Assembly: GCF_026967575.1 (NCBI RefSeq)
Contig: NZ_CP114054.1
Span: forward strand, 1 to 64,000
Direction of reading: 5' to 3'
Source of the DNA: Aurantiacibacter sp. MUD11
Lineage (GTDB): Bacteria; Pseudomonadota; Alphaproteobacteria; Sphingomonadales; Sphingomonadaceae
DNA: 64,000 nt
Shown here: positions 23,940 to 26,343 of the stretch, one piece after another
Position numbering within the stretch: position 1 is the stretch's first letter
Layout of the letters: every line of letters starts with the position of its first letter
Program-made: the position numbers and the translations under genes
The notes under the pieces: generated by a model
The model's database searches: none
What the model saw: only the letters and a program-made list of their open reading frames with translations
What the model was told of the DNA's origin: nothing

Positions 23940-26267
23940 CTAGTCAATGTTCTCCGGCACCTTTTCGCGCAGGTCTGCCAGCCACACCTCGGCTACGGCA
24001 TCGCTCGGCGCGCGCCAGTCGCCACGCGGGCTGAGCGCGCCGCCGGCGGAAACCTTGGGGCCGTTGGGCAGGGCGCTGCGCTTGAACTGGCTGAAGGCGA
24101 AGAACCGCTTCACGAAATTCTCCAGCCAGTGGCGGATGGTGGCGAGATCGTAGGCGTTCTTCTTCGCCTCCGGGAAATCCTGCGGCCACACCCCTTCGGC
24201 AATGTCGCGCCAGGCGTGCCAGCACAGGAAAGCCGTGTGGCTCGGCTGCTGCCCCCAGCGGATGGTGTGGTGGAGGAAGAAGTCGTTGAGCTCGTAGGGA
24301 CCGATCACGCTCTCGGTGCTCTGGATATTGCCCTTCTCGTCGGCGGGCACGAGTTCGGGGCTGATCTCGGTCGCCAGCACCTCTTCCAGCACCTCGTTGA
24401 CATGGGCATCGAACTGGTTGGTGCGCTCGGTCCAGCGGATCAGGTACTGGATCAGCGTCTTGGGCACGCCCGAATTGACGCCGTAGTGGCTCATCTGGTC
24501 GCCCACCCCATAGGTGCACCAGCCTAGCGCCAGTTCGGAAAGGTCGCCGGTGCCGATCACGAAACCCCGGTGATGCCCGGAAAGGCGGAACAGGTAATCG
24601 GTGCGCAGGCCTGCCTGCACGTTCTCGAAGGTGACGTCATAGACCGGCTCGCCCTCGGCAAAGGGGTGACCCATGTCCTGCAGCATCTGCCGGGCGGCGG
24701 GCTTGATATCGATTTCCTCGGCGGTGATGCCGAAGGCTTCCATCAGCTTCCAGGCGTTGGACTTGGTCTCGTCCGAGGTGGCGAAGCCGGGCATGGTGTA
24801 GCCGCGGATGGTGGTGCGCGGCAGGCCGAGCATGTCGCAGGCCTTGGCGCAGACGATCAGGGCATGGGTGGAATCGAGGCCCCCGGAAATGCCGATCACC
24901 AGCGACTCGGTGTTGGTCGCCTGCATCCGCCGCATCAGCGCGTCGACCTGGATGTTGAACGCCTCGTAGCAGTCCTCGTCCAGCTTGTCGGCGCGGTTCG
25001 GCACGAAGGGGAAGCGGCGGATCGGACGTTCGAGGCCGATATCGCCATGCTGGTAGTGATGCTCGAACCCGACGGTGCGGTAGTGGTCCTCGGGGCGTCC
25101 GGCATCTTCGGCAGCGTCGTTGAACGTGCCCATGCGCATGCGTTCGTTGAGCACGCGGCGGGTGTCGATATCGGTGACGCACAGTTCCGGCTCCAGCTCG
25201 AAGCGCACGCTCTCCACCATCAGGTCACCCAGTTCGTAGACCATGCCCTGGCCATCCCAGCTGAGGTCGGTCGTGCTCTCGCCAAATCCGCTGGCGGAAT
25301 AGACATAGGCGCAGACCGCACGGCTGGAACTGGCGCGGCACAGCATGTGGCGCTCATCCGCCTTGCCGATGGTGATGTTGCTGGCGGAAAGGTTCAGCAC
25401 GATGGTGGCGCCCGCCAGCGCGGCCAGCGTGCCGGGCGGGGTGGGGGCCCAGTAGTCCTCGCAGATCTCGATGCCGAAGGTGAATCCGGGCAGGTTGGTG
25501 GCAGAGAAGATCAGGTCGGTACCGAACGGAACTTCAGCCCCGTTCACGACCAGCCAAAGGTCCTGGCAATTGTTGCCGCGCGCGAACCAGCGCTTCTCGT
25601 AGTATTCGCGGTAATTGGGCAGGAAGCTTTTGGGCACCACGCCCAGCACCTCGCCATGGGCGATTGCCAAGGCGCAGTTGTAGATGCGGCCGTTGCGGCG
25701 CAGCGGCGCGCCGATCACCAGCACGGGGTTCAGCTTCTCGCTCGCCTTGCGGACCGTCTCGATCCCGCGCTCCACCGCGTCGAGCAGCGCTGCCTGGATA
25801 TGCAGGTCGTCGATCGCATAGGAGGACAGACACAGTTCCGGGTAGAGCAGCAGGTCGACATTGCGCGCATGCGCGATCTCCGCCTGTTCGATGATGCCGG
25901 CGGCATTGTAGGGCACGTCGGCAGTGCGGGTCTTGGGCGTGCTCGTCGCCACCCGCACGAAGCCGTGGTCGTGCATGTCGAAGAAGTCGAAGTCGGTTGC
26001 GCTCATCGCGGGTTCGCTTTCGGCCAAAGTGCTGTCGATTGATGTGTTCGTGGCGGGCTCGAGAAAGTCGCCCGGTTCGCAGATACCCAGTTCGGCCAAG
26101 CGTTTCTGGGTGGCGGCGCGAGGCACCTTGCCCTTGGCTTCCCAGCCATAGACGGTGCGGCTGGGCCAGGCGTCCGGCTCGCCATATTGCAGGCCGAATT
26201 CCTCCGCACTCAGCGGCGGATCGTGCGCCTCGCGCCATTCGCGGATTTTCTGGCCGGCCAGATGCAT
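23940..26267 (-). CDS. nadE: Glutamine-dependent NAD+ synthetase with N-terminal HTH domain
   Basis: 775 residues when read from 26267. Residues 1-75 form an XRE/Cro-like helix-turn-helix (GQKIREWREAHDPPLSAEEF, then SRTVYGWEAKGKVPRA and KRLAELGIC), joined in frame by a Thr/Ser/Glu-rich linker to a full NAD synthetase. The synthetase has the glutaminase (nitrilase fold) triad E144, K213, C269 and the ATP pyrophosphatase loop ISGGLDST (460-467). It converts nicotinate adenine dinucleotide, glutamine and ATP to NAD+. I checked every codon of the junction and found no stop. An alternative start at 26006 (688 residues, synthetase only) has no Shine-Dalgarno, whereas 26267 has GCGGGG. A palindrome sits just upstream of 26267. 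Autoregulation is inferred. Confidence 0.85.
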   Translation of the reverse strand: MHLAGQKIREWREAHDPPLSAEEFGLQYGEPDAWPSRTVYGWEAKGKVPRAATQKRLAELGICEPGDFLEPATNTSIDSTLAESEPAMSATDFDFFDMHDHGFVRVATSTPKTRTADVPYNAAGIIEQAEIAHARNVDLLLYPELCLSSYAIDDLHIQAALLDAVERGIETVRKASEKLNPVLVIGAPLRRNGRIYNCALAIAHGEVLGVVPKSFLPNYREYYEKRWFARGNNCQDLWLVVNGAEVPFGTDLIFSATNLPGFTFGIEICEDYWAPTPPGTLAALAGATIVLNLSASNITIGKADERHMLCRASSSRAVCAYVYSASGFGESTTDLSWDGQGMVYELGDLMVESVRFELEPELCVTDIDTRRVLNERMRMGTFNDAAEDAGRPEDHYRTVGFEHHYQHGDIGLERPIRRFPFVPNRADKLDEDCYEAFNIQVDALMRRMQATNTESLVIGISGGLDSTHALIVCAKACDMLGLPRTTIRGYTMPGFATSDETKSNAWKLMEAFGITAEEIDIKPAARQMLQDMGHPFAEGEPVYDVTFENVQAGLRTDYLFRLSGHHRGFVIGTGDLSELALGWCTYGVGDQMSHYGVNSGVPKTLIQYLIRWTERTNQFDAHVNEVLEEVLATEISPELVPADEKGNIQSTESVIGPYELNDFFLHHTIRWGQQPSHTAFLCWHAWRDIAEGVWPQDFPEAKKNAYDLATIRHWLENFVKRFFAFSQFKRSALPNGPKVSAGGALSPRGDWRAPSDAVAEVWLADLREKVPENID

Positions 26268-26276
26268 GACCCCGCA

Positions 26277-26293
26277 GTATCCCAAAAGGATAC
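26277..26293. promoter_or_regulatory. Palindrome in front of HTH-nadE, candidate operator
   Basis: GTATCC-caaaa-GGATAC, perfect six-base arms, 10-26 bp upstream of the ATG at 26267. On the gene's strand TTGCAC-N17-TACTGC could be a promoter that overlaps it. A dimeric XRE-type domain such as the one encoded immediately downstream would fit a site of this size. Confidence 0.5.
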
Positions 26294-26309
26294 AGGGTGC
26301 AAATGCAAA

Positions 26310-26343
26310 GCGCCGCCGCTCCGGGGACGGGGAGCGACGGCGC
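26310..26343 (-). terminator. Hairpin terminator after glycine-zipper gene
   Basis: Arms 26310-26322 and 26331-26343 pair at 12 of 13 positions around an 8-base loop. On the minus strand they are followed by TTTGCATTTG. It separates the glycine-zipper gene from HTH-nadE. Confidence 0.5.

Follow-up and report, generated by a model that had tools for sequence, protein, structure and literature searches.

A Cro-like helix-turn-helix head on the NAD synthetase of Aurantiacibacter and its relatives, with a conserved palindrome at its own gene: a candidate self-repressing enzyme

The window analysed here is a stretch of 64,000 nucleotides from Aurantiacibacter sp. MUD11 (contig NZ_CP114054.1, positions 1 to 64,000). 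Its reverse strand carries a gene, HTH-NadE (Table 1), in which a Cro-like helix-turn-helix (HTH) domain heads the glutamine-dependent nicotinamide adenine dinucleotide (NAD) synthetase NadE, the last enzyme of the NAD pathway. An earlier note on this DNA had read the HTH as continuing in frame into a complete NadE, and this reading stands. The frame of 775 amino acids has no internal stop, NF002730 (NAD(+) synthase, glutamine-dependent) matches residues 95–772 with 1046.6 bits (cut-off 473), both NAD_synthase and CN_hydrolase are matched by Pfam, and E144, K213, C269 and the SGGLDST motif (461–467), which we take to be the catalytic residues of NadE, are all present. The enzyme being NadE, the build is not that of NadR (an HTH with nicotinamide mononucleotide (NMN) adenylyltransferase and kinase). 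Folded alone with AlphaFold, residues 1–77 give five helices (3–14, 21–28, 36–44, 51–59 and 65–69) in a Cro-like arrangement, with a mean predicted local distance difference test (pLDDT) score of 92.5. The best Foldseek matches in the PDB were MBF1, 3ivp, P22 c2 and HigA; as the E-values are weak (best 0.081, none below 0.08), the Cro-like assignment comes from the fold and the consistent ranking, not from significance. HTH_31 (Pfam) was matched in four of seven family members (best E 6.9e-6), and at locus L043 it scored 24.7 bits, below the cut-off of 27. The pLDDT of the full-length model falls below 50 at residues 75–90, which this model predicts to be a flexible tether. Across 35 homologues, the mean frequency of the top residue is 0.82 in the HTH, 0.25 in the linker, and 0.77 and 0.84 in the enzyme parts; judged by this alignment, residues 1–71 appear to be under strong constraint, conserved like the enzyme.

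Table 1. Features of the HTH-NadE gene and its upstream region (window coordinates).
Feature	Position	Strand	Remarks
HTH-NadE fusion gene	23940..26267	-	775 aa + stop; ATG 26267–26265
Cro-like HTH domain, residues 1–71	26055..26267	-	AlphaFold model, Foldseek ranking, conservation
Linker, variable, probably disordered, residues 72–94	25986..26054	-	Conservation and pLDDT
Glutaminase (CN_hydrolase) part of NadE, residues about 95–420	25008..25985	-	Profile matches, conservation
NAD synthetase part, residues about 421–775	23943..25007	-	Profile matches, conservation
Internal ATG (Met88)	26004..26006	-	Possibly a relic of the pre-fusion start codon
Proposed operator GTATCC-N5-GGATAC (here GTATCC-TTTTG-GGATAC)	26277..26293	.	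10–26 bp upstream of the ATG
-35-like box TTGCAC	26297..26302	-	In relatives, a TTG precedes the palindrome by 9 or 10 bp
Probable -10 region TACTGC	26274..26279	-	Overlaps the proximal half-site; inferred from 17-bp spacing

An N-terminal HTH recurs among NadE homologues. A protein search with residues 1–95 returned 205 proteins at E up to 10; the best 120 of these were examined, and 115 are fusions of 762–793 residues, the other five being shorter (all with E up to 1.1e-28). In a sample of 298 genomes of the family, where a fusion was called from the open frame and the position of the NadE match, 52 have an HTH match and 48 of them encode HTH-NadE; a NadE of the NF002730 type above cut-off is found in 150. 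A scan of one genome per species (84,980 species) gave at least 75 titled loci, a lower bound because the scan requires certain exact peptides. Their titles include Aurantiacibacter, Qipengyuania, Parerythrobacter, Pontixanthobacter, Altererythrobacter, Croceibacterium and Erythrobacter, and some read merely ‘Alphaproteobacteria bacterium’ or ‘Sphingomonadales bacterium’. The frame continues into NadE in 74 of the 75, and at L267 it stops at the contig end. The two sets overlap and thus lack independence: judged by an identical stretch of 60 nt upstream, at least 28 of the titled loci come from genomes already among the 48.

The palindrome that the earlier note had seen close upstream of the start codon is confirmed, and so is its conservation. 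The site is exact in 46 of the 48 HTH-NadE genomes, with one mismatch in G146 and three in G239 (locus L046). The HTH of G239 has diverged further than any other among the 48 (56 percent identity), and its site, TTATCT-TTTCG-GGATAA, has the outer pair altered on both sides and one further base on one side. Among the 75 titled loci, 60 sites are exact, 14 have one mismatch and one has two (L266, TTATCC-TTTTG-GGATAA, with the outer bases changed together). When the palindromes are aligned, the 12 half-site columns hold 1.85–2.0 bits and the centre 0.25–1.02; the flanking columns are mostly below 0.4 bits, except for the TTG box and the ATG. The half-sites lie 11 bp apart, one helical turn. The palindrome starts 25–27 bp before the ATG in 45 of the 48 genomes, and a TTG stands 9 or 10 bp ahead of it at 46 of the 48 nadE starts. 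A variant with the symmetry broken at one position, GTAGCC-TAAAA-GGATAC, is seen at L206, L209, L214, L219, L224, L226 and L237, six of them titled Qipengyuania, and also at L031 (G146).

With a 17-bp spacer, the -10 region would fall on the proximal half-site and transcription would start at about the ATG. The earlier note had relied on a ribosome-binding site at the fused start that the internal start lacked, an argument that does not survive comparison. A Shine-Dalgarno-like (SD-like) 5-mer precedes the fused start at two of the 75 titled loci, and a linker Met (in the window Met88, which may be the start codon from before the fusion) is present at 55, four of which have an SD-like motif ahead of it. 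The 20 loci without a linker Met therefore seem dependent on the fused start. The layout and the rarity of SD motifs point to a leaderless nadE mRNA and to an operator that would block the polymerase. What is found at nadE is thus a conserved operator over the gene's own predicted promoter.

The operator is distributed with the head. HTH-less nadE rows were hand-picked, in the main from genera in which the fusion occurs too; 14 of roughly 100 were fetched, 13 were readable, and the exact site is absent from all 13. In a tree that left out G208 (with HTH) and G205 (without), for which the start-placing motif was not found, a site with at most one mismatch is present in 46 of 47 rows with the HTH and in none of 13 without it, where the best match has 4–5 mismatches. 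All 10 independent pairs were concordant (sign test, p about 0.002); a few ways of pairing gave nine, and no pair was discordant. In G103, an HTH-less genome of the window's genus, the gene upstream of nadE is the same as in the window (72.6 percent identity), so that the comparison is made at one locus. At L057, L059, L065 and L066, the HTH-less nadE lies directly behind a gene that by eye, from its motif, appears to be of the pncC/cinA type, and it may therefore use another promoter.

The 298 genomes hold 70 exact sites in 61 genomes, 46 of them at HTH-nadE, eight elsewhere in HTH-bearing genomes and 16 in HTH-less genomes. The window genome (2.79 Mb) has the exact site once, at nadE; at up to two mismatches the palindrome has 49 sites there and the reversed control pattern 98, and thus no general enrichment is seen. 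Three sites in this genome have one mismatch; they are within or next to coding sequence, and no NAD gene was seen there. A TldD-like open reading frame was considered as a regulon target and rejected: in seven HTH-bearing genomes (L035–L041) conserved ILKGY codons spell the palindrome, probably a coincidence.

A homologous HTH (38–43 percent identity), first seen as weak matches in one genus, heads a second enzyme, the class II DAHP synthase (DAHPS). In HTH-DAHPS, PF01474 is matched at residues 77–514, and HTH_31 lies just below its Pfam cut-off. Searching proteins yielded 65 of this type; PF01474 is matched in every one, 59 are 521–534 residues long, and their names include Sphingomonas and Stakelama. 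In the genus of the first matches, the HTH lies in an open frame of 335–664 residues in 49 of 121 genomes. One more HTH-DAHPS, L111, was seen among weaker matches read by eye. Fifty of 52 HTH-DAHPS starts could be placed (L164 and L173 could not), and all 50 carry a palindrome of the form TTACCC-N5-GGGTAA (40 exact, nine with one mismatch, one with two) with a TTG 8 to 10 bp ahead of it. At 32 of them a second copy (at most two mismatches) lies 24–36 bp further upstream; shuffles give an expectation of 0.075. The exact motif occurs in 44 of the 121 genomes, 40 of them HTH-bearing; seven of its 58 sites lie away from HTH-DAHPS, and their surroundings, read by eye, showed no common target and no further fusion. 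It is absent from 18 HTH-less DAHPS genes hand-picked from about 72, where the best match has at least three mismatches. The nadE and DAHPS operators both fit nTAYCC-N5-GGRTAn.

Free-standing relatives of these heads are few: five proteins in a large database (query included) and three loci in the sampled genomes. Six lie on viral contigs, and the HTH of one of these, L282, is identical to that of L154 from a sampled genome. A divergent HTH gene adjoins the free-standing relative at L042, L278 and L283 (all three scanned), a gene with DUF7146 and Toprim_3 lies downstream at L042 and L283 (both scanned), and the remaining loci are similarly arranged by eye. Their setting is thus that of phage DNA, with a repressor-like gene on one side and a replication-type gene on the other. 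Eight distinct free-standing starts, six of them on viral contigs, have a TTGC 8–10 bp before their best 6-5-6 palindrome, which lies at -25 to -29 and has 0–2 mismatches; L154 was left out of these eight and of the tree, its HTH being the same as that of L282. In this tree, built from 37 selected HTHs, the heads of DAHPS form one clade (97/100) nested among free-standing genes, and the NadE heads form a clade (82/83) that is sister to free-standing L042. A C-terminal multi-cysteine stretch is common in the free-standing proteins (P0187–P0191, L279–L281, L283), and the fused heads are without it. One source gives a free-standing Cro-like protein of 106 residues (P0190/L278) the name 3-deoxy-7-phosphoheptulonate synthase, apparently on account of the shared HTH. 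Two TTACCC-N5-GGGTAA sites at L202 (about 1844 and 2540) have, by eye, phage-like surroundings and short HTH genes as neighbours, so the operator of the DAHPS type may be one used by phages.

The domain, the conservation of the operator, its co-occurrence with the HTH, the layout and the homology to genes on viral contigs, all computed here, make it likely that HTH-NadE is a conserved self-repressing enzyme. The Cro-like N-terminal domains would pair on the oligomeric enzyme, and the paired HTHs would bind GTATCC-N5-GGATAC. The operator would cover the stretch from the -35 box to the start, including the probable -10, so that RNA polymerase would be kept from initiating the nadE mRNA, which is probably leaderless; a rise in enzyme would then lower nadE synthesis, and the ligand state of NadE may tune the repression. 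The proposal of the earlier note that NadE represses its own gene is strongly supported by comparison: genes with the HTH have an operator that hardly varies, the HTH-less genes compared lack it, and further support comes from another enzyme, with a head of the same HTH family and the same layout. Its companion proposal, that NAD, nicotinic acid adenine dinucleotide (NaAD) or ATP is sensed through the synthetase, describes what the fusion might do. The module of promoter, operator and HTH frame would most likely derive from the cro gene of a phage together with the early promoter of that gene, inserted in frame before nadE, and a separate capture would have given HTH-DAHPS. Two captures of cro-like genes with their promoters are the simplest account of the origin, and one that we moderately favour on the sequence comparisons; the direction is inferred, and an enzyme head that became a free-standing gene is the alternative. 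Taken together, it is somewhat likely that a phage cro cassette, comprising promoter, operator and HTH frame, has become the head of a host biosynthetic enzyme at least twice in the Sphingomonadaceae, in NadE and in class II DAHP synthase, giving enzymes that read the state of their own active sites and repress their own leaderless promoters.

Other explanations of the locus were weighed. The palindrome could be a hairpin in a 5' leader RNA (6-bp stem, 5-nt loop) that controls translation, the HTH doing something else. GUAUCC-N5-GGAUAC can indeed pair, and the outer pair co-changes at L266 and L046, but the letters are fixed at nearly 2 bits, beyond what pairing needs, and GTAGCC-TAAAA-GGATAC breaks a pair at seven of the 75 titled loci. 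The spacing to the ATG also suits a leaderless start, and the second copies at HTH-DAHPS starts lie further upstream, beyond the TTG box; a hairpin is therefore very improbable. It is very unlikely that the HTH mainly controls other genes in trans, with self-binding secondary. Exact sites do occur elsewhere (24 of 70 of the NadE type, seven of 58 of the DAHPS type), but the window genome has its single exact site at nadE and one-mismatch sites without a NAD gene, and 14 of the sites elsewhere (seven of the 24 NadE-type and the seven DAHPS-type), when inspected, gave the TldD-like codons and no common target. Just as slight is the chance that some other regulator uses the operator, with the conserved HTH left over as a relic or serving for oligomerisation: binding of the operator by the HTH is a prediction from sequence, which leaves room for this, but operator and HTH co-occur, the HTH is strongly constrained, and related operators stand before two enzymes that are themselves unrelated but have homologous HTHs. 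The alternative raised in the earlier note, a separate small HTH gene that lost its stop codon in this strain, deserves almost no credence and is rejected, since, even with free-standing relatives in other genomes, the fusion is found in 115 of the best 120 of 205 proteins, 48 of 298 genomes and 74 of 75 titled loci, and three HTH-less genomes of the window's genus have no match to the NadE-type HTH anywhere in the genome.

Several points weigh against self-repression and phage capture. Residues 1–87 of the window protein have no Pfam match and insignificant NCBIfam matches, and the putative DNA binding and repression by HTH-NadE are drawn from comparison. The HTH and the operator lie about 10 bp apart, so that one deletion could remove both, which weakens the argument from co-loss, and the HTH-less rows compared were chosen by the analyst (14 of roughly 100 nadE, 18 of about 72 DAHPS). 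As to origin, the free-standing palindromes are individually weak (shuffles as good: 0.005–0.447), and the argument is their shared layout. L042 has a long branch, on which its placement as sister to the NadE heads depends; deposited phages and plasmids yielded no relative of the free-standing HTH, and the NadE-type HTH had no match on viral contigs.

Phage Cro repressors are encoded by a small HTH gene that lies beside a divergent HTH gene and has a palindrome at its own start, whereas the HTH described here is fused to host metabolic enzymes. PutA and BirA are enzymes that repress genes through a built-in DNA-binding domain, and HTH-NadE differs from them in domains, pathway and operators. 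Closer is NadR of the Enterobacterales, which also has an N-terminal HTH on an enzyme of the NAD pathway and unites repressor and enzyme in one chain; it combines an HTH with NMN adenylyltransferase and ribosylnicotinamide kinase, and most orthologues outside the Enterobacterales lack the HTH (PMC12421817). HTH-NadE differs in its enzyme, in the bacteria that carry it and in having its own gene as the single exact genomic site. BzdR shares the linking of an XRE HTH to an enzyme fold: according to PMC3602430, it joins the HTH to a shikimate-kinase-like domain without kinase activity and controls benzoate genes, and a synthetic chimera, Q1, retained both kinase activity and promoter repression. 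HTH-NadE, which retains its active-site residues and has its site at its own gene, would be a natural counterpart of Q1. Autoregulators of the XRE family act through palindromes upstream of their own genes, as set out in PMC12565409, the main text of which makes no mention of nadE, NAD synthetase, enzymes, fused proteins, Sphingomonas-type bacteria or Erythrobacter. Judged by title and abstract, no paper on an HTH-NadE or HTH-DAHPS fusion was among the matches listed in text searches of open-licence PMC articles. Enzyme-repressor fusion as such is already known.

Four types of repressor of bacterial NAD synthesis or salvage, NadR, NiaR, NrtR and NadQ, are listed in PMC12421817. If the account given here is true, HTH-NadE would be a fifth, in which the last enzyme of the pathway represses itself, and the head would be a portable one-piece feedback device. 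The fusions would then be natural intermediates between enzyme and regulator, and would offer examples from nature of how an enzyme turns into a regulator, a question that PMC3602430 takes up with engineered chimeras. The DAHP synthase case suggests that the trick is not unique to NAD. As one genus includes species with and without the HTH, once beside the same upstream gene, the question is directly testable.

Weaker HTH matches, a part of all those obtained, were read by eye at 14 loci from the family and at 9 and then 21 from the class. Most were ordinary XRE or phage-repressor-like proteins or chance frames and were set aside as fusions. At L103, L104 and L105, from other sphingomonad genomes, an XRE HTH lies ahead of DNA methyltransferase-like sequence (by eye). 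L093, from the incomplete genome of a distant alphaproteobacterium (G414), encodes on its reverse strand (502–1692) a protein of 397 residues with an HTH (HTH_3, 22.9 bits, just below the cut-off of 23) and an amino acid kinase domain (PF00696; ArgB-like by eye). Among 58 genomes, G414 and its relatives, this fusion was found in G414 only, two others giving weak matches in frames of 97 and 109 residues. Two ATATAC-N7-GTATAT palindromes lie around the L093 start, in AT-rich DNA, and this lone HTH-kinase fusion hints that placing such a head on an enzyme is more widespread still.

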